NCBI RefSeq assembly: GCF_033845285.1
Contig: NZ_JAWXCX010000001.1
Location: forward strand, 3,053,495 to 3,117,494
Source of the DNA: Marinococcus sp. PL1-022
Lineage (GTDB): Bacteria; Bacillota; Bacilli; Bacillales; Marinococcaceae
Direction of reading: 5' to 3'
DNA length: 64,000 nt
Shown: one piece after another, positions 8,212 to 20,359 of the stretch
Layout: each line of letters starts with the position of its first letter
Numbering within the stretch: the first letter of the stretch is position 1
Program-made: the position numbers and the translations under genes
The notes under the pieces: generated by a model
Seen by the model: the letters and a program-made list of their open reading frames with translations, nothing else
What the model was told of the DNA's origin: nothing
Database searches by the model: none

Positions 8212-9420
8212 TTAAACGGTTTTTGGCACCGGATGGAAGCAGCGCTTGTAGATCCACTCGTAGTCGGACACTTTCAAGTCGCGAGGGTTGCCCTCTGTCT
8301 GCGGGTCGTTCATTGCTTCTTTGGCAAGACGCTCGGTCATGTCAGGATTTACGCCCTGCTCCTCGAGGGAAGGAATGTCAAGCTCTTCTGCAAGATCATA
8401 CATATACTGCACAGAAGCTTTAGCTGCCTCCTTGGTGCTCATGCGTGCGGTGTCGATGCCAAATGCCTGGGCGACACGTGCAAAGCGTTCCGGGGCACCT
8501 TTCCAGTTGTATTCCATTACCGGTCCCATCATAGCTGCGACGCATTGGCCGTGTGCTACTGGAATGATACCGCCCAGCGTCTGGCTCATGGCGTGCGCAG
8601 CACCGGCAGATTCACTGCCGTAGGAAAGGCCTGCAAGCATCGCAGCCTGGGACATGCCGTAACGGGCTTCAAGATCTTCACCATCGGCATAGGCGCGTCG
8701 GATGTATTTTGCAGCGTACTCAATCGCAAGCAGAGCCACTGCGTCTGTGACAGGCTGGGCGAATTTCATTGTATAGCATTCAACCGCGTGAGCGATCGCA
8801 TCAATACCGGTCATTGCAGTTACGTGCGGAGGCATGGAAACGTGCAGCTCCGGATCGATAATGGTTACGTATGCCGGAATGAGCGGGCCGCCGGTGTTAA
8901 ATTTAAATTCACGGTCTTCGTCTGTGATTACTGCCCACTGGGTTACTTCAGAGCCGGTGCCTGCTGTTGTTGGTACAGTTATGAATGGCGGGATGCGGCG
9001 CTCCAGCGGCTTTTTGCCCTCAGCAGCTTCATAATCGAGAATCGAGCCTTCGTGGGTAGCTTCCACGCCGATGGCCTTTGCAGTGTCCATTGAGCTTCCG
9101 CCGCCGACAGCGATCAGGCCGTTGCAGTTTTCTGCTGTGTAAAATTTGGATCCCTCTTCAATCAGGCGCACGGGAGGGTTTGGCTCTACTTTATTGAAGA
9201 GAACAGCCTCTACACCGGAAGCTTCAAGATTGTCGATAACGGGCTTTGTTACGCCTGCATTATGGATGCCCGGGTCTGTGAGGAGCAGCACTTTGTCAGA
9301 GCCGAAGGCTTTGATTTCTTCACCAATATGTTTAATGGCACCGATGCCGTGCTTGATTGCTGTAGGTACTTCAAATGTGTGATAGCTTAACATGCTTTCG
9401 ACCTTCATATTCATGCTCAT
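8212..9420 (-). CDS. gbsB: Iron-dependent (type III) choline dehydrogenase
   Basis: Oxidises choline to betaine aldehyde in glycine betaine synthesis. The 402-residue protein has the type III alcohol dehydrogenase fold: NAD-binding GGGSSMD (106-112), TTAGTGSE (151-158), and metal ligands D207 and H211 (GIDAIAHAVE) plus histidines in AAHAMSQTLGG and VAHGQC. The start is fixed by AAGGAGGA six bases before the ATG. It is the third gene of the minus-strand cluster gbsA-betA-gbsB, 102 bp behind betA. The coexistence with the GMC-type enzyme BetA is unusual because either can perform the same step. Confidence 0.9.
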   Translation of the reverse strand: MSMNMKVESMLSYHTFEVPTAIKHGIGAIKHIGEEIKAFGSDKVLLLTDPGIHNAGVTKPVIDNLEASGVEAVLFNKVEPNPPVRLIEEGSKFYTAENCNGLIAVGGGSSMDTAKAIGVEATHEGSILDYEAAEGKKPLERRIPPFITVPTTAGTGSEVTQWAVITDEDREFKFNTGGPLIPAYVTIIDPELHVSMPPHVTAMTGIDAIAHAVECYTMKFAQPVTDAVALLAIEYAAKYIRRAYADGEDLEARYGMSQAAMLAGLSYGSESAGAAHAMSQTLGGIIPVAHGQCVAAMMGPVMEYNWKGAPERFARVAQAFGIDTARMSTKEAAKASVQYMYDLAEELDIPSLEEQGVNPDMTERLAKEAMNDPQTEGNPRDLKVSDYEWIYKRCFHPVPKTV

Positions 9421-9442
9421 GGGAAAATCCTCCTTAATGAAT

Positions 9443-9514
9443 GAAAAAAGATCCTTTTTTCCAAAGCGAGGGCTTTTACAAAAAGCTGCGCTGGATAAAA
9501 AGAATCCTTTTTAT
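9443..9514. repeat. Two copies of a [14 protein letters not shown] between betA and gbsB
   Basis: GAAAAAAGATCCTTTTTTCC (9443-9462) and GATAAAAAGAATCCTTTTTA (9493-9512) are imperfect copies of the same AAAAAG-ATCC-TTTTT palindrome, 50 bp apart, in the leader of gbsB. They could be operator sites or weak hairpins at the betA 3' end. No strong terminator was seen in this gap. Confidence 0.35.
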
Positions 9515-9522
9515 ATTTTATT

Positions 9523-11208
9523 TTAGGACTTAATTGTCCCTGCATCCGACGGATCAACGCCGTGACGATAAAATTTTGTATGCATCGGTTCGAGCGGCTG
9601 TTGCTCAAGGATCAGATCCGCTGCTTTTTCAGCGATCATGAGTACGGGTGCATGAATGTTTCCGTTCGTCACATAGGGCATGACGGAGGCATCCACTACG
9701 CGAAGATTGTCGACTCCATGCACTTTCATCGTCTTCGGATCAACAACGGCCACTGGGTCTGAAGCAGGTCCCATTTTCGCAGTACCGCTCGGGTGCAACG
9801 CCGTTTCGGCATCATTCGCAACCCATTCCAGAATTTCTTCGTCTGTTTGTACAGCGTCCCCTGGAGCGATCTCTCCAGAATTGAATGGTTTCATGGCTGG
9901 TTGCGCCATGATTTCACGGGAAATGCGGATCGCTTCAACCCACTCGCGTCTATCCTGCTCCGTGGAAAGATAGTTGTACACCATGCTTGGATGCTCCTTT
10001 GGATCCTTAGAGCGGATCTTCAAGCTTCCTCGTGCGTCAGAATACATTGGCCCAACGTGCACTTGGAATCCGTGCTTCGTATCTGCTTTCTTGCCGTCAT
10101 AGCGTACTGCTACCGGGAGAAAGTGGAACATTAAATTCGGATAAGGAACAGTCTCGTTAGAGCGGACAAATCCCCCTCCTTCAAAATGATTCGACGCTGC
10201 GTGACCTTTACGGCCAAGCAGCCACTGCAGACCGATCCAAGGCATTTTCAACTTATTCAAGCTTGGCTGCATGGAAACCGGCTGTGGGCAGGAATACTGA
10301 ATATATGCTTCCAAATGGTCCTGCAGATTTTCACCGACACCCGGCAGATCAGCTATCGGCTCAATTCCAAGCGAACGCAGGTGTTCAGCGTCCCCGACTC
10401 CGGAAAGCTGAAGCAGCTGCGGAGAATTGATGGCGCCGCCGGAAAGAATGATCTCTCCGGCGTTCACCTTCAGCGTTTTGCCATTGTGTTGATATGTTAC
10501 ACTTTCTGCCTTTGTCCCGTTAAAATCTATGCTTTCAACAAACGCACGGGTTCTTACTGTAAGGTTTTTTCGATTCATAACCGGGTGCAAAAATGCACGG
10601 GAAGCAGACATTCGTCTGCCTTTATGGATATGCTTATCAAACGGCCCGAATCCTTCCTGGCGGTAACCGTTCACGTCCGGTGTGCGCGTATAGCCTGCTT
10701 CTACGGCTGATTCAAAAAACGCCTGGAACAACGGACTCGTTGCTGGCCCCCGTTCCAGCTTCAGCGGACCGTCCTGCCCGCGGAACTCGTCACCTTCTTC
10801 AGCTGCCATCGCGTTTTCCAACCGCTTGAAGTATGGAAGACAGTGCGCGTAGTTCCACTCCTCCATACCTTCGTCTGCCCCCCATCGTTCATAATCGAGA
10901 GGATTTCCGCGCTGATAAATCATTCCGTTAATAGAGCTGGAACCGCCGAGGACTTTTCCTCGCGCATGCTTAATGCGGCGACCGTTCATGTATGGTTCCG
11001 GATCAGACAGATACTTCCAGTCATAGAGACTCTTTCCTGCTGGAAACGGCAGTGCCGCCGGCATCTGAATCAGTAAGTCCCAAGCATAGTCACTTCGCCC
11101 TGCTTCTAGTACAAGCACGCTATTATTTTTATCGGCGCTTAACCGGTTCGCAAGTATAGATCCTGCACTGCCTCCACCAATAATTACATAGTCAAATGTT
11201 TCACTCAT
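9523..11208 (-). CDS. betA: Choline dehydrogenase, GMC flavoprotein
   Basis: FAD-dependent choline dehydrogenase, 561 residues, converting choline to betaine aldehyde and probably passing electrons to the respiratory chain. The Rossmann motif [11 protein letters not shown] opens the protein, [16 protein letters not shown] is the GMC signature 1, and [10 protein letters not shown] near the C-terminus carries the catalytic His. Sequence resembles proteobacterial BetA. I prefer the ATG at 11208: a run of seven G ends 8 bp before it, whereas the GTG at 11217 would abut that run. It follows gbsA by 170 bp. BetA is rarer in Bacillaceae than GbsB, so horizontal acquisition is possible. Confidence 0.9.
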
Positions 11209-11378
11209 ATTGTGCACCCCCCCAAAGTTTTTCTTTGTTTAACGATGTGTGTGAAGCTATTTAATAACTTTTGATCCAACTATGTTATTTCGTAGAGAGT
11301 TATTAATAAAATGATAATTACTCAACATAAAAAACGAGAGATTATTTATAGAGTTTGTATTTATCTGTTGCTGTCGAT

Positions 11379-12845
11379 CTAGAAAAAATTCAGAGCTTCC
11401 GGGTTCGTGTTACGGAAGATGTGTTTGGTTTCGGTGTACTCCTCCATGCCGACCTTGCCAAGCTCACGGCCGATGCCGGACTGCTTGTAGCCGCCCCACG
11501 GCGCCTGCGCAAAGTACGGGTGGAAGTCATTGATCCAGACAGTGCCAAGACGGAGGCCGGAGGCCACTCGCTCTGCTTTGCTGATGTCTGTGGTAAATGT
11601 AGCGCCGGCAAGACCGTAAACGGTGTCGTTCGCTTTTTCTACGGCTTCTTCTTCAGAGGTGAAGGTTTCCACGGTGAGTACCGGGCCGAAGATTTCTTCC
11701 TGCACGATTCTCATGTCGGAGCGGCAGTCGGTAAAGATCGTCGGGAGAAGGAAGAATCCCTTTTGGAGCGTTTCGTCGTCCGGACGTCCGCCGCCGACAG
11801 CAACGGTTGCTCCTTCCTGTTTACCGATGTCGATATAGTTTTCGACCTTGCTCAAGTGCTCCGCGGAAATAAGCGGTCCCATCTGGGTTTCTTCGTCCTG
11901 ACCACTGCCGAGACGAATGTTTTTCACCCGGTCAACGATCGCGTTGACGAAGTCGTCATGGATGGATTCCTCCACCAAAAGCCGTGCTCCGGCGGAACAA
12001 ACCTGTCCGGCATGGAAGAAAGCGGCGTTTAGCGCCTGGTCTACGGCTAGATCGAAATCAGCATCGGCGAAAACAATGTTAGGGTTTTTGCCACCAAGCT
12101 CAAGGGCGATTTTTTTCATATTGGAGGTGGCGGACTGCATGATTTTACGGCCGGTTTCAATACCGCCTGTAAAGGAAATCAGGTCCACGTCCACGCTTTC
12201 AGAAAGCTCCGCCCCGACGTCGGTGCCTTTTCCGAGCACAAGGTTGGCAACGCCTGCCGGAAGGCCGGCTTCTTCCATCAATTGAAATACCTTGACGGTC
12301 GTAAGCGGTGTGATCTCACTTGGTTTTACGATAATGGTGTTTCCCGTCGCAATAGCCGGTGCGATCTTCCAGGATGCCTGCAGCAGCGGGTAGTTCCAGG
12401 GGGTGATCTGGCCGCATACGCCCACAGGCTCACGGACGATTTTGCTGTCCGAGTCTGGAAGCGGGGAAGCAACGTATTCGCCGCCGTCTTTATCAGCAAG
12501 GCCGGCAAAATAATGGAATACTCCGGCGATATCATCCATATCGGCACGGCTTTCTCCCATTGTTTTACCTGTATCGAGCGTCTCGAGCTCTGCGAGTTCT
12601 TCCTTATCCCGCTCAATGAGCTGGGCTACCTTTAATACGTAAGCTCCGCGCTCCGAAGCGGTTGTAGAGGCCCATGGCCCTTTGTCAAATGCACGGCGGG
12701 CAGCCTGTACGGCTTTTACAGCGTCCTCACGGGAGCCTTCCGCTGCCTGCGTGATAACGCTTTGGTCAAGCGGATTAATAATGTCCCGGGTTTTGCCGTT
12801 AGCAGCGTCTACCCATTCGCCGTCAATGTACATGCGAATATCCAT
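11379..12845 (-). CDS. gbsA: Betaine aldehyde dehydrogenase
   Basis: Oxidises betaine aldehyde to glycine betaine with NAD(P), the second step of the pathway. The 488-residue protein has the aldehyde dehydrogenase catalytic set: N151 (TPWNYP), K174 (VKPSE), E249 (ELGGKNP) and nucleophile C283 (GQVCSAG). The ATG at 12845 follows AGGAGG at 8 bp; the open frame extends 30 codons further upstream but into the promoter region. First gene of gbsA-betA-gbsB, divergent from gbsR, from which it is separated by a shared regulatory region. Confidence 0.94.
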   Translation of the reverse strand: MDIRMYIDGEWVDAANGKTRDIINPLDQSVITQAAEGSREDAVKAVQAARRAFDKGPWASTTASERGAYVLKVAQLIERDKEELAELETLDTGKTMGESRADMDDIAGVFHYFAGLADKDGGEYVASPLPDSDSKIVREPVGVCGQITPWNYPLLQASWKIAPAIATGNTIIVKPSEITPLTTVKVFQLMEEAGLPAGVANLVLGKGTDVGAELSESVDVDLISFTGGIETGRKIMQSATSNMKKIALELGGKNPNIVFADADFDLAVDQALNAAFFHAGQVCSAGARLLVEESIHDDFVNAIVDRVKNIRLGSGQDEETQMGPLISAEHLSKVENYIDIGKQEGATVAVGGGRPDDETLQKGFFLLPTIFTDCRSDMRIVQEEIFGPVLTVETFTSEEEAVEKANDTVYGLAGATFTTDISKAERVASGLRLGTVWINDFHPYFAQAPWGGYKQSGIGRELGKVGMEEYTETKHIFRNTNPEALNFF

Positions 12846-12906: not shown

Positions 12907-12935
12907 AATTTATCAGCTTTCGAACATCTTGTCAA
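12907..12935 (-). promoter_or_regulatory. Sigma-A promoter of gbsA
   Basis: Read on the minus strand: TTGACA, 17-bp spacer, TAAATT. The -35 box is perfect; the -10 box matches 4 of 6. The transcript would start about 55 bases before the gbsA start codon. Confidence 0.6.
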
Positions 12936-13103: not shown

Positions 13104-13131
13104 TTGACAAGAGATTTTTATACGTTAAGAT
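13104..13131 (+). promoter_or_regulatory. Sigma-A promoter of gbsR
   Basis: TTGACA, 16-bp spacer, TAAGAT. The surrounding TTTGACAAGA is identical to that of the divergent gbsA promoter. Confidence 0.5.
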
Positions 13132-13191: not shown

Positions 13192-13761
13192 ATGACGGAT
13201 TCTCATCACCAGGATGAATGGAGGGAGTCACTCGAAGGCGCCAAAGACATTATCATTGATTCCCTGGCTGAAACCATGGATTTGTACGGTGTCACAAGAA
13301 GCGTTGGCACTTTGTATGGGACAATGTATGTGGAAGGCGATATGACGCTGGATGAAATGAGAGAAAAACTCGGAATGAGTAAACCGAGTATGAGCACCGG
13401 AGTACGAAAGCTTCAGGAGTTCAATGTTGTAAAGAAAACGCACCGGCGCGGAAAGCGAAAGCAGACCTACGTAGCCGAAAAGGATTTTTTCCGTTTTTTC
13501 ACCAACTTCTTTACCCAGCAGTGGGAGAGAGAAGTGCGGACGAATTTGAGCGCCATTAAAAGCGCCCGAAAACAATTGGACATGCTGATTCAGTCGGAAG
13601 AAGCAGAAGAGTCCATAAAAGAAGAAGCACGGGAGATCCAGCGGATCCTCAGCCAGTCGATCAAGTACTACAAATGGCTGAGTCGTCTCGTGGAGTCTAT
13701 GGAAACAGGAGAATTATTTAAATATATTCCGATAGAAGAAGACGATGAAAAAGAGAGATAA
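13192..13761 (+). CDS. gbsR: Choline-responsive repressor, GbsR family
   Basis: MarR-like transcription regulator of 189 residues. A winged helix-turn-helix (about residues 30-95: LDEMREKLGMSKPSMSTGVRKLQE, then the basic wing THRRGKRKQT) is followed by a helical C-terminal part. In B. subtilis GbsR senses choline in the cytoplasm and releases the gbsAB and opuB promoters. The ATG follows AAAGGAGGAG. Its place between gbsA (divergent) and the symporter gene (72 bp downstream) suggests it controls both. The last codons are part of a 9-bp hairpin (13753-13780). Confidence 0.9.
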   Translation: MTDSHHQDEWRESLEGAKDIIIDSLAETMDLYGVTRSVGTLYGTMYVEGDMTLDEMREKLGMSKPSMSTGVRKLQEFNVVKKTHRRGKRKQTYVAEKDFFRFFTNFFTQQWEREVRTNLSAIKSARKQLDMLIQSEEAEESIKEEAREIQRILSQSIKYYKWLSRLVESMETGELFKYIPIEEDDEKER

Positions 13762-13794
13762 CAGTTTTACTTTATCTCTCCGGAAAACGTTTTC
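13753..13794 (+). promoter_or_regulatory. Hairpin and palindrome between gbsR and the symporter
   Basis: GAGAGATAA/TTATCTCTC (13753-13780) overlaps the gbsR stop and has no T-run, so it is not a normal terminator. It is followed by the perfect 12-bp palindrome GAAAACGTTTTC (13783-13794). The palindrome resembles a cre site but lacks the TG and terminal A/T positions. Either could tune symporter expression. Confidence 0.35.
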
Positions 13795-13833
13795 GCAATA
13801 TTTAGAATTTTATTAAAACTTGAGGTGTTGCTG

Positions 13834-15471
13834 ATGATAGAAAAAAATTTAAACCTACTAAAGAGTCTGGGATTCGTCCTTCTGGTAGCCGCCGTACTGA
13901 TTTACATAATGGCTACGGGGGACGAAGTGATGTGGAGCGGCTTTATTGCCATGCTTGTTTTCTATGCGTTGATGTACTATGTCGGCGCCTATTTTGCCGC
14001 TAAAAAGTCTGATTCCCTCGACGACATGATGGTGGCCAAACGGAGTCTGCCGCTTGTTATCATGATTTTCACGATGGCTGCCACCTGGGTAGGCGGCGGT
14101 TATATTAACGGGACCGCCGAATCCACATACGTGGACGGCCTGGTGTGGGCCCAGGCGCCCTGGGGTTATGCCCTCAGTCTAATTATTGGGGGTATTTTTT
14201 ATGCGAGAAAAATGCGCCGGTATGAATTCAAAACCATTATTGATCCGCTCGAGCAGCGGTTTGGAAGGAAGATGGGCGGCCTGTTGTATCTTCCGGCCCT
14301 TCTCGGGGAAATGTTCTGGAGTGGTGCCATTCTGACAGCCCTCGGGACGACATTCGGTACGATTTTAGGGATCGATTTTACGACGTCGATTGTCATTTCA
14401 GCTATTATTGCGATCGCCTACACCGTATTTGGCGGCATGTGGGCGGTGGCCTATACAGACCTTTTACAGATGATTCTGCTTTTGGGCGGTTTGTTTCTGG
14501 TACTGCCATTTGCCTTTGGCAGCACCGGCAGCCTGAGCGTCAACTGGAACGATTATCAGGCGGATCTTGGCACCTACGCAAACCTTTTTCCGCCGCTTGA
14601 TGGATGGAACCATCCGGAATGGGGCAGCTATTTCTGGAACTGGTGGGACTATGCCTTTCTGTTGATTTTCGGCGGCATTGCCTGGCAGGTCTATTTTCAG
14701 CGCGTGCTTTCCGCTAAAGATGAAAAGACGGCGATGTGGTTTTCGATCATTGCCGGCGTTGTATGTATTATTGCGGCGGTCCCTGCTGTTCTTATTGGTA
14801 TCATCGGCTACAATGTCGACTGGGCGTCCTTTGGTACTTCAGCACCCGAAACAGCGGCCATGGTACTGCCGGAAGTGCTGCAGCATCTGACGCCGGGATG
14901 GGTAGCGGCGATCGGCCTCGGGGCACTTGCAGCCGCCGTTATGTCTTCCATGGACTCTTCGATTCTTTCCGCCTCCTCGATGGCGTCATGGAATATGTAC
15001 CGCCCGCTGATTCGTCCGAAAGCCTCCAGTAATGAACTGAAAAAAGTCATCAAGACCTCGATTGTGATTATCGGGGCAGCATCGACGCTGATTGCTTTAA
15101 ATGTCGGAAGTGTATATACCCTGTGGTACCTTGCATCGGATTTGATTTTCTGTATATTATTCCCGCAGCTGACCATGGCCCTGTTTTATAAAAATGCGAA
15201 TGTGTATGGTTCGCTTACAGCGTTTATTGTATCGATCTTTTTACGCCTTGGCGGCGGGGAGCCGGCAATCGGCCTGCCGGTCTTTCTTCCGTATCCAATG
15301 ATTGAAGACGGAATTGTGCTTTTCCCTTTCCGTACGGTGATTGTGATTATCGCGTTTATTCTCATATTTGTTGTTTCTGAAGCTACAAAGAAAAAAGCTG
15401 TGCCGAAGCCGCTTCTCATGCCTCATGAACGGAATGACAACGAAGCCTTGGAAAAACAGCCGTCTAAATAA
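13834..15471 (+). CDS. Sodium:solute symporter resembling the CHT1 (SLC5A7) choline transporter
   Basis: Membrane symporter of the SSS family, 545 residues, about 13 membrane segments. Long stretches match what I recall of the animal high-affinity choline transporter: ATWVGGGYINGTAE (83-96), WAQAPWGYALSLIIGG (105-120), MGGLLYLPALLGEMFW, WQVYFQRVLSA, AAVMSSMDSSILSASSM, and a GGEP near the end. The nearby betaine genes support choline as substrate: it would import the precursor for GbsB/BetA and GbsA. The ATG at 13834 lies 8 bp after TTGAGGTG; a GTG three codons earlier is less likely. B. subtilis uses ABC systems (OpuB/OpuC) for this job. Family certain, choline specificity inferred. Confidence 0.85.
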   Translation: MIEKNLNLLKSLGFVLLVAAVLIYIMATGDEVMWSGFIAMLVFYALMYYVGAYFAAKKSDSLDDMMVAKRSLPLVIMIFTMAATWVGGGYINGTAESTYVDGLVWAQAPWGYALSLIIGGIFYARKMRRYEFKTIIDPLEQRFGRKMGGLLYLPALLGEMFWSGAILTALGTTFGTILGIDFTTSIVISAIIAIAYTVFGGMWAVAYTDLLQMILLLGGLFLVLPFAFGSTGSLSVNWNDYQADLGTYANLFPPLDGWNHPEWGSYFWNWWDYAFLLIFGGIAWQVYFQRVLSAKDEKTAMWFSIIAGVVCIIAAVPAVLIGIIGYNVDWASFGTSAPETAAMVLPEVLQHLTPGWVAAIGLGALAAAVMSSMDSSILSASSMASWNMYRPLIRPKASSNELKKVIKTSIVIIGAASTLIALNVGSVYTLWYLASDLIFCILFPQLTMALFYKNANVYGSLTAFIVSIFLRLGGGEPAIGLPVFLPYPMIEDGIVLFPFRTVIVIIAFILIFVVSEATKKKAVPKPLLMPHERNDNEALEKQPSK

Positions 15472-15476
15472 AATCA

Positions 15477-15515
15477 AAAAAAGAGCCTGGAAGCAGCAAT
15501 GCTTTCAGGCTTTTT
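15477..15515 (+). terminator. Terminator after the choline symporter
   Basis: AGCCTGGAAGC pairs with GCTTTCAGGCT (one G-T pair) and ends in TTTTT. Confidence 0.85.
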
Positions 15516-15855
15516 GGCGTACTGCGCCGCATATACAGAGAAAAACAGCTTCTACAGCTGTATACTGAAGCTTAGGAAGTTTTCGGGAAGGTCAACATAC
15601 CTAACGGCGTTCAGTGCATCTATGTTAACATATTTCCTTTGTTTGTCCATTAAACATAAAAAAGAATAGCTATAATTAATGCTGTTTTTTAGCAAATATT
15701 TGTTGTCCATGCCGATAAGCGCCTGTTTTCATATTATTTCATGGTTATTTGCATTATATGGAAATAAGCAGGCAGAAAATGATTGAATTTCATCAGCATT
15801 TCTATAAAATAAAAGAAGTATTTCTGCGTGAATTTGATTAGAAGAGGAGACCCTG
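15516..15855. other. 340-bp intergenic region
   Basis: No convincing gene. It holds a likely promoter for the ABC exporter (TTGAAT at 15783, 16-bp spacer, TAAAAT at 15805) and the ribosome site GAAGAGGAG just before 15856. A 27-codon frame ending at 15841 has no ribosome site and overlaps that promoter. Confidence 0.4.
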
Positions 15856-18732: not shown

Positions 18733-19000
18733 ATGCATTTAAAACACTGAACAGCCTTGGAAGGGGGATGAGCTCGAGCGTGGTGTTTGTTCTGGGGTCT
18801 GTGTTGGTTTTTTCTTCTAATTCGGTACAGTAAATCAATTCTTCCTCTTCAAGAAAATACAGAGAGTCCTGTAGTTTCCGCTCCTGGGTGCTGGTTAAAT
18901 GCACCACAATTGATTCGTTTCTTTTCAGCGCAGCTTCGGCAGCGGGGGCGGCATGTTTATTTAATTTATGGAACGCACGATTCACTTTAATAGCAAGCAT
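18731..19000 (-). CDS. Small hypothetical protein, 89 residues
   Basis: I do not recognise this protein. It starts MLAIKVNRAFHKLNKHAAP after a good ribosome site (CAGGAGGC, 9 bp). The middle is helical with a KRNE/LTSTQERKLQDSLYFLEEEELIYCTE segment rich in Glu; the C-terminus is LELIPLPRLFSVLNA. No signal peptide or membrane segment. Its stop codon overlaps the T-run of the convergent terminator. The left end of the insertion sequence lies only 37 bp upstream of its start, so its original promoter may have been cut off. Confidence 0.6.
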   Translation of the reverse strand: MLAIKVNRAFHKLNKHAAPAAEAALKRNESIVVHLTSTQERKLQDSLYFLEEEELIYCTELEEKTNTDPRTNTTLELIPLPRLFSVLNA

Positions 19001-19036
19001 GGTGCAGGCCTCCTGTTTTTCAGGCTCTATAATATT

Positions 19037-20359
19037 TGTTGGGGTACAGACACAAAAAAACACGCAGACTCCGATATCCGTTATACTTGCGTCGACGAAA
19101 ACCAAGCAGGATAGGAGTTGCGTGCATATGTATAGTAACATAACGATCCCCGGCCTCCAAGGGGTAAGGGTCCTCCACACCGACGAACGGGAAGGAATGG
19201 TGCACCTTCAGGTGGCGGTGCCCCGGAAACGGTCCCGGTGCCCAGCCTGTGGCACGTGGACCCGGCGGGTCCACGATTACCGGTGGCAGCGGGTGCAGCA
19301 TACGGCCTGGTTTGAACGGCCAACCGTGCTTCATTATCGTCGGCGGCGGTACGCCTGCCCCTGCGGGAAGCGATTTGCTGAAGCTAATCCACTGGTCGAT
19401 CGGTATCAGCGGCACAGCCGGGAATGGAATCAGGCCCTCGGCCTCCGGCTGGTCACCGGCAAGAATTTCACCGATACAGCCCGCCAGTTTTCCACGTCAG
19501 TCACGACGGCGCTGCGCCGGTTTGACGAGTTGGCTTCCCGGACGCTCCCGCACGTGGAGCAGCTGCCACGGGTGATTGCTGTCGACGAGTACAAAGGCGA
19601 CACGAGCGCCGGCAAGTATCAGCTGTTGGTGGCGGACGGGGCTACCGGACGTCCGGTCGACATTTTGCCGGACCGGAAGAAAGAGACACTGAAGCAGTAC
19701 CTGCAGCAGAAAGGCGGCCAGGTGGAGGTGGTCGTGATGGATATGAGTGCGCCCTTTCACCAGGCGGCCCGGCGGGCCCTGAACCGTCCGATCATCGTGG
19801 CGGACCGGTTTCACGTGCACCGGCACGTGTACTGGGCTCTCGAACGGGTCCGGCGCCGCGTGCAGCACACCCTGTCGTCCTACCACCGCAAGCGGTGCAA
19901 ACGGCTGAAGCACGTGTTTACCAAAAAAGCCGAAGACCTCACCGCCCAACAGGTGAAGATCCGGGACTATTACCTGGCCGAGTCGGAAGAGCTCCGGACG
20001 GCATATGAACTCAAAGAAGCCTTTCGGGCCTGGTTTGAGCGGAGCAAGCGCCGGATGACAACCGGCCAGGCCGGCGCGATCCGGGATGATCTGTACGCCT
20101 TCTACCGGCAGGTGGAAGCGAGCGGGTGCCCGGACATGGCCCAGGCTGCCGCCACCGTCCGGCGCTGGCAGACCGAAATCCTGAACAGTTTTACGTTCGA
20201 TTATCACAATGGCACCGTGGAAGGACTGAACAACCAGACCAAGGTGATCAAACGGAACGCCTTCGGGTTCCAGCGGTACGACCGCCTGCGGGCCAAAGTG
20301 TTATTGCATCATCAATATAAATGGTCGCTCGCCGGATAATGGAGGGGGTCACCCCAACA
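19037..20359 (+). mobile_element. ISL3-family insertion sequence, about 1.3 kb
   Basis: One transposase gene flanked by short inverted ends: TGTTGGGGT at 19037-19045 and its complement ACCCCAACA at 20351-20359. Length of about 1.3 kb suits a compact ISL3 element. The DNA inside is clearly richer in G and C than its neighbours. No 8-bp target duplication is seen (ATAATATT left, TTAGACAT right), so either the true ends differ by some bases or the element is old or has been rearranged. Confidence 0.75.
19128..20339 (+). CDS. ISL3-family transposase
   Basis: DDE transposase of 403 residues. An N-terminal zinc-ribbon (CPAC 38-41, CPC 77-79) with basic flanks is followed by a helix-turn-helix (NFTDTARQFSTSVTTALRRF). 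The catalytic acids are D153 (VIAVDEYKGD), D205 (VVMDMSAPF) and E365 (NGTVEGLNNQTKVIKRNAFGF). The frame is intact, so the enzyme could be active. The ATG at 19128 is 10 bp after AGGATAGGAG. Codon use is GC-rich compared with neighbours, in line with recent arrival. Confidence 0.93.
   Translation: MYSNITIPGLQGVRVLHTDEREGMVHLQVAVPRKRSRCPACGTWTRRVHDYRWQRVQHTAWFERPTVLHYRRRRYACPCGKRFAEANPLVDRYQRHSREWNQALGLRLVTGKNFTDTARQFSTSVTTALRRFDELASRTLPHVEQLPRVIAVDEYKGDTSAGKYQLLVADGATGRPVDILPDRKKETLKQYLQQKGGQVEVVVMDMSAPFHQAARRALNRPIIVADRFHVHRHVYWALERVRRRVQHTLSSYHRKRCKRLKHVFTKKAEDLTAQQVKIRDYYLAESEELRTAYELKEAFRAWFERSKRRMTTGQAGAIRDDLYAFYRQVEASGCPDMAQAAATVRRWQTEILNSFTFDYHNGTVEGLNNQTKVIKRNAFGFQRYDRLRAKVLLHHQYKWSLAG

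Follow-up and report, generated by a model that had tools for sequence, protein, structure and literature searches.

Which solute is carried by the sodium/solute symporter (SSS) encoded beside the choline oxidation genes of the salt-loving bacterium Marinococcus sp. PL1-022, and how is this protein related to CHT1 (SLC5A7), the choline transporter of nerve cells in animals? We addressed these questions in a 64,000-nucleotide stretch of the 3.2 Mb genome, hereafter the window. Our reading, to which we give a probability of about 93%, is that the window protein is a bacterial CHT: a Na+-driven choline symporter that would feed glycine betaine synthesis, a relative of the bacterial transporter sfCHT and a homologue of CHT1. 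Because its near relative sfCHT imports choline with sodium, the window protein is a well-supported new example of this type. The case is built from sequence, residues, tree and gene order, and the transport data are those of sfCHT; for the window protein itself we infer choline transport, control by GbsR, use of chloride and a role at high salt.

CHT-type bacterial choline symporters are already known. sfCHT, from the likewise salt-loving Salimicrobium flavidum (PDB 9RWS, 9RWT), was reported in Science Advances in May 2026 to perform Na+-dependent, HC-3-inhibited choline transport (PMC13220886). The same paper describes the physiological roles of bacterial CHTs as unclear, and the words operon, gene cluster and neighborhood and the stem phylogen are absent from its main text. 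Eight years earlier, in 2018, it had been speculated that choline is imported by SSS proteins whose genes lie with gbsR and gbsAB in gbs clusters, as seen in Bacillus licheniformis and B. megaterium (PMC6207618, whose relevant passages contain no functional test and no link to CHT1). The lack of an OpuB-type transporter in B. licheniformis DSM 13, reported in 2013, fits this reading (PMC3858371). In a 2021 review of prokaryotic SSS, the passages on choline name no SSS choline carrier (PMC7918813). The first-pass annotation of this DNA had implied that a sodium-driven choline route of this kind would be new; that part of its claim falls, given the 2018 proposal and the 2026 proof for sfCHT. What we add is a two-partner neighbourhood pattern and bacterial proteins up to 55% identical to human CHT1.

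The window protein belongs to the CHT family

In a phmmer search of the PDB, the best solved match of the window protein was sfCHT (9rws/9rwt; 767 bits, 525 residues ungapped), followed by human CHT1/SLC5A7 (395.7 bits, E 3.4e-117, window residues 35–517). The 13 other sequences among the matches listed scored far lower, the best of them being vSGLT at 56.5 bits. By blastp, the protein is 63% identical to sfCHT (323/510, ungapped; 62.9% to the S. flavidum gene product) and 43.7% identical to human CHT1 over 499 columns. Such ungapped identity to the solved sfCHT suggests that the protein adopts a LeuT fold. All five motifs that the first-pass annotation had quoted as shared with SLC5A7 do occur in the human CHT1 chain 8j74 (one dot in its second motif is superfluous).

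The Pfam SSF model (PF00474) places the protein in the SSS/SLC5 family (141 bits, cut-off 22.8). SSF was its sole match in a Pfam scan, in which the BCCT domain PF02028 was absent; with the general NCBIfam SSS model TIGR00813 it scores 160.4 bits, below the cut-off of 184. The seven other SSS proteins of the host genome are at most 28% identical to it. Its reading frame is also open from an upstream GTG at 13825; Marinococcus relatives, however, have their start codon (GTG or ATG) at the position equivalent to 13834, preceded by a Shine-Dalgarno-like GAGGTG. By this gene, the nearest named relatives of the host are Marinococcus species, at 97–98% identity. A plasmid search yielded a single record, a Priestia megaterium plasmid on which the symporter DNA is 64.9% identical over 58% of the query.

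Our main tree has 52 rows, comprising 41 bacterial CHT rows, human CHT1, four distant SSS and SSS proteins of the host genome itself (PutP, PanF, an ActP-like protein and three further ones). The CHTs, human CHT1 included, form a clade (support 100/99) that sits on a long stem and excludes the other SSS. A second tree, from which the paralogues of the host genome were left out, gives the clade with CHT1 and sfCHT support of 100/100. Within the 52-row tree, the window protein clusters with Marinococcus luteus and Alteribacillus, and sfCHT sits in a different Bacillota branch. A tree had been set beforehand as a check on the CHT1 likeness, and the likeness withstands it: the window protein falls with CHT1 and away from the PutP and PanF of its own genome.

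Choline, sodium and tunnel sites are conserved

We mapped published sites onto the window protein, taking the cage, Na+ and tunnel residues of sfCHT from PMC13220886 and further CHT1 sites from PMC11589582. All 14 sfCHT residues mapped are identical in the window protein, as are all 24 mapped sites of human CHT1 (PDB 8J74, 9BFI), which cover the choline cage, the Na+ and Cl- sites, the tunnel and the HC-3 contacts. Every published choline-binding residue of CHT1 that was mapped is present; their absence had been named beforehand as a ground for refuting the CHT1 likeness.

These sites suggest how transport could proceed. External choline would be held in a Trp/Tyr cage of W85, Y90, Y112, W162, W284 and W431, the equivalents of human W62, Y67, Y91, W141, W254 and W406. 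Na+ would bind at Na2 (A83, V86, A368, S371, S372; human A60, V63, A343, S346, S347) and probably at Na3 too (D209, D374, S375; human D188, D349, S350). Cl- would perhaps bind at G87, G89, Y90 and W162 (human G64, G66, Y67, W141); the sfCHT structure has no Cl- density (PMC13220886), whereas human CHT1, which feeds acetylcholine synthesis, is chloride-dependent. The way out for choline would then be a tunnel with Q289, R290 and R70 as its gate; together with S293, these residues correspond to Q259, R260, R47 and S263 of the human exit tunnel. The CHT1 site that touches the choline hydroxyl (PMC11589582) is kept as well.

Conservation was scored on 102 rows of bacterial CHTs, among which some duplicate others. 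In human numbering, none of the 102 departs from W62, W141, W254, W406, R47, Q259 or R260, nor from E73, an HC-3 contact. F replaces Y91 in 3 rows (Y in the other 99) and Y67 in 9 (Y in the other 93), and A replaces S263 in 19 (S in the other 83). Ten other SSS proteins present a different picture: none has W254 or Y67, one has W406, four have W62, four have W141 and three have Y91, and all ten carry G at the E73 position.

The same residues bear on a rival reading, a proline (PutP/OpuE) or pantothenate (PanF) carrier of the usual kind that has no more than a resemblance to CHT1. The window protein does match the models of both carriers, as a superfamily member (TIGR02121, 97.8 bits; TIGR02119, 82.2 bits), but these scores are far below the cut-offs (515.5 for PutP, 328.05 for PanF), and the host encodes both carriers at other places in its genome (PutP, 634 bits; PanF, 629 bits). 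The near absence of W254, Y67 and W406 from other SSS proteins also speaks against such a carrier, as does the tree, which keeps the window protein apart from both. On model scores, residues and tree we reject a proline or pantothenate symporter, which we hold to be extremely improbable, in favour of a CHT.

Four of the 102 rows (L129, L130, L131, L132) have D in place of G64 of the Cl- site together with S in place of D349 of Na3. In these proteins a carboxylate might replace chloride, and ion coupling may be different.

A choline oxidation cluster adjoins the symporter gene

The symporter gene had been described as next to gbsR and the choline oxidation genes. Model searches bear this out: the scores of GbsR/CudC, GbsA, BetA and GbsB all exceed the respective NCBIfam cut-offs (Table 1); with Pfam MarR_2, the gbsR product scores 21.1 bits, below the cut-off of 27. 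A gap of 72 bp separates gbsR from the symporter gene on the same strand, and gbsA, betA and gbsB are divergent from this pair. The ATG of gbsA at 12845 is preceded by AGGAGG; its mechanical ORF begins at TTG 12935. The most likely role of the symporter is Na+-driven import of choline, from which glycine betaine is made, with GbsR/CudC as the regulator. Imported choline would lift GbsR/CudC repression, control of the symporter by GbsR being suggested by gene position. GbsB, BetA or both would oxidise this choline, and GbsA would complete its conversion to glycine betaine, an osmoprotectant.

Table 1. Features of the choline cluster, in window coordinates.
Feature	Coordinates	Strand	Basis
gbsB, iron-type choline dehydrogenase	8212..9420	-	NF053866, 724.4 bits (cut-off 550)
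betA, FAD-type (GMC) choline dehydrogenase	9523..11217	-	TIGR01810, 885 bits (cut-off 732.1)
gbsA, betaine-aldehyde dehydrogenase	11379..12845	-	TIGR01804, 734.8 bits (cut-off 668.6)
Promoter-like site before gbsA, TTGACA-17-TAAATT	12907..12935	-	Consensus scan, weak
Promoter-like site before gbsR, TTGACA-16-TAAGAT	13104..13131	+	Consensus scan, weak
gbsR/cudC, choline-sensing repressor	13192..13761	+	NCBIfam NF047500, 271.9 bits (cut-off 218)
CHT-type sodium/choline symporter (SSS/SLC5 family, SLC5A7-like), 545 aa	13834..15471	+	ORF from ATG to stop, PDB match, residues, trees
Terminator-like hairpin directly after symporter gene, 16 pairs, U-rich 3' arm	15480..15515	+	RNA fold

The sfCHT gene has a similar setting. 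We identified it at locus L047, the product of which agrees with PDB 9rws at all 510 residues compared; gbsA, betA and gbsR lie beside the gene. It thus shares a betaine neighbourhood with the window, but its arrangement differs: at L047 a gbsA-betA-gbsR run points away from the symporter gene, with gbsR about 4 kb off, whereas in the window gbsR is directly upstream on the same strand. The gbsB of the window cluster is a further difference from L047. In B. paralicheniformis (L021), gbsB-gbsA lies opposite gbsR-symporter, which is the window order minus betA.

The window cluster encodes two unrelated choline dehydrogenases, GbsB and BetA (8212–11217). Both gbsB and betA occur within 5 kb in 3 of 112 intact CHT loci collected from other genomes (L010–L012, all Marinococcus). 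The M. luteus locus (L009) has no visible betA, which was therefore gained or lost within the genus. Spacing of the genes downstream of the symporter varies among Marinococcus species, and at 18888–20339, downstream in the window, lies an ORF that resembles an ISL3-type transposase. In the assembly of Marinococcus halotolerans DSM 16375, L010 is intact, and two fragments of CHT genes (L051, L076) lie at contig ends; they may reflect a second CHT copy or a mixed culture.

A consensus scan reports nothing terminator-like in the gap from gbsR to the symporter gene, so co-transcription of the two is likely. A weak promoter-like match at 13700–13728, inside the end of gbsR, might allow the symporter gene to be transcribed separately; promoter-like sites are no commoner in the scanned stretch than in shuffles (8 observed, 9.5 expected). 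Folding of 15470–15530 around the hairpin gives -31.4 kcal/mol (z -6.2), with 0 of 200 shuffles equally stable; the consensus scan does not list this hairpin. Between gbsR and the symporter gene there is also a perfect 12-bp palindrome, GAAAACGTTTTC, at 13783–13794, which resembles a cre site. Of four full Marinococcus loci, two (L010, L011) keep it intact. Its sequence is changed in L009, as it is in the fragment L076, and M. halophilus (L012) has lost it. Given this alteration and loss, we make no claim for it as an operator or cre-like site.

Bacterial CHT genes have two kinds of choline partner

We took 120 CHT loci other than that of the window, of which 114 are distinct by sequence and two of these are fragments. 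Within a radius of 5 kb we recorded BetA or GbsB (at least 45% identity), GbsR (at least 38%) and phosphatidylcholine synthase (Pcs). BetA, GbsB or GbsR is present at 66 of the 112 distinct intact loci, L047 with the proven sfCHT gene among them (67/114 with the fragments), and a Pcs-like gene at 16 others (also 16/114); one locus has an aldehyde dehydrogenase alone, and 29 have no linked gene. Among the 30 unlinked loci, one fragment included, 12 have less than 2 kb of sequence on one side. In 31 of the intact loci, gbsR lies at most 250 bp from the CHT gene. It is the sole betaine hit at 13 of the 66 linked loci, 10 of which are without an aldehyde dehydrogenase within 5 kb. As a control, 16 loci of non-CHT SSS genes were taken, 14 of them measurable: not one of the 14 has a BetA, GbsB, GbsR or Pcs neighbour in the 5 kb radius, and a generic aldehyde dehydrogenase is present at two. 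In four of the 14, the sequence ends before 5 kb on one or both sides. The conserved linkage of CHT to the choline oxidation cluster is real.

The Pcs neighbours are a second, independent choline link of CHT genes. These 16 loci (L078, 8989–11257; L046, L065, L070, L072, L079, L157, L158, L162, L165, L166, L168–L171 and L176) have hosts that include named Planctomycetota, Acidobacteriota and Bacteroidota, and in 12 of them the Pcs gene is at most 250 bp from the CHT gene. The name Pcs is given by similarity, because the L078 query, which five phosphatidylcholine synthase models match best, scores at most 138.8 bits with them, below their cut-offs of 300 to 440; the remaining Pcs genes are named by likeness to the Pcs of L078 or L065. 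Titles and opening lines of abstracts among the literature matches listed mention nothing of a link between CHT and phosphatidylcholine synthase. The loci of Actinopolyspora and kin (L055, L058–L061, L066, L068, L069) speak against the pattern, since none of these partners lies near CHT there; one of the neighbours scanned at L055, 1.3 kb from CHT, is a CDP-alcohol phosphatidyltransferase of undefined specificity. Together, the neighbourhoods point to a physiological context for bacterial CHTs: choline for betaine in many lineages and for phosphatidylcholine in others.

An even sample of the window's class has a CHT at E ≤1e-100 in 19 of 398 genomes, its own included, and all 15 loci of this sample that do not repeat earlier-collected relatives carry betaine genes nearby. 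Samples of two other phyla have a CHT in 8 of 345 and 3 of 294 genomes. For the phylum to which the Acidobacteriota locus belongs, the figure is 17 of 247 genomes, three of which match no better than distant SSS do.

Choline as the substrate, and other routes in the host

The OpuB/OpuC (ABC) and BetT/CudT (BCCT) transporters do the same job, bringing in choline for betaine synthesis, but belong to protein families unrelated to the window symporter. Since the host genome has six BCCT genes and two OpuAC-type ABC systems, one of them a permease-binding-protein fusion, the window symporter may not be the sole choline route. One BCCT is just above the betaine-BCCT cut-off (653 vs 650), and on the core stretches scored none of the six passes the BetT cut-off. 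The OpuAC-type binding protein at L104:1342–2289 has its domain halves in swapped order relative to Pfam PF04069, presumably as in Bacillus OpuAC.

A gene in an osmoprotectant cluster could also encode a carrier of a broader range of quaternary amines (glycine betaine, carnitine, acetylcholine), with choline one of several substrates and conceivably a minor one in vivo, and the aromatic cage could in principle bind other trimethylammonium compounds. However, the partners of its relatives act on or sense choline, whether through BetA, GbsB or GbsR or through Pcs-like proteins (67 and 16 of 114 loci). The host genome also has separate betaine-type BCCTs, and the contact site for the choline hydroxyl is conserved from CHT1. 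We consider the wider substrate range quite unlikely and favour choline as the substrate.

Relation to human CHT1

Human CHT1 pairs with CHTs of Cyclobacteriaceae in three trees (support 95/86, 94/82 and 81/69), and the Cyclobacteriaceae copies adjoin betA and gbsA. These trees hold one animal sequence and involve long branches. The alternative topology, in which bacterial CHTs form one clade that excludes human CHT1, is not rejected by the AU test (p 0.134; 0.261 with 33 rows), so a nested origin of human CHT1 within bacteria was tested and not shown. Because the AU test keeps the alternative and long branches are involved, we claim no origin for CHT1. It is conceivable, if on balance doubtful, that CHT is an old bacterial choline-uptake gene, partnered with betaine synthesis and phosphatidylcholine synthase, and that the CHT1 of animal nerve terminals was taken from within the bacterial radiation, next to Cyclobacteriaceae, and is not an independent eukaryotic branch. 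Judged by titles and abstract openings among the matches listed, no paper on a bacterial origin of CHT1 was found.

Bacterial relatives reach about 55% identity to human CHT1 by blastp. Over 470 shared columns, a CHT of Phycisphaerae (L078:8989-10512) has 54.9% identity to human CHT1, compared with 47.7% for the sfCHT gene. The L078 protein is thus possibly a better bacterial model of human CHT1 than sfCHT, for example for drug-binding work.
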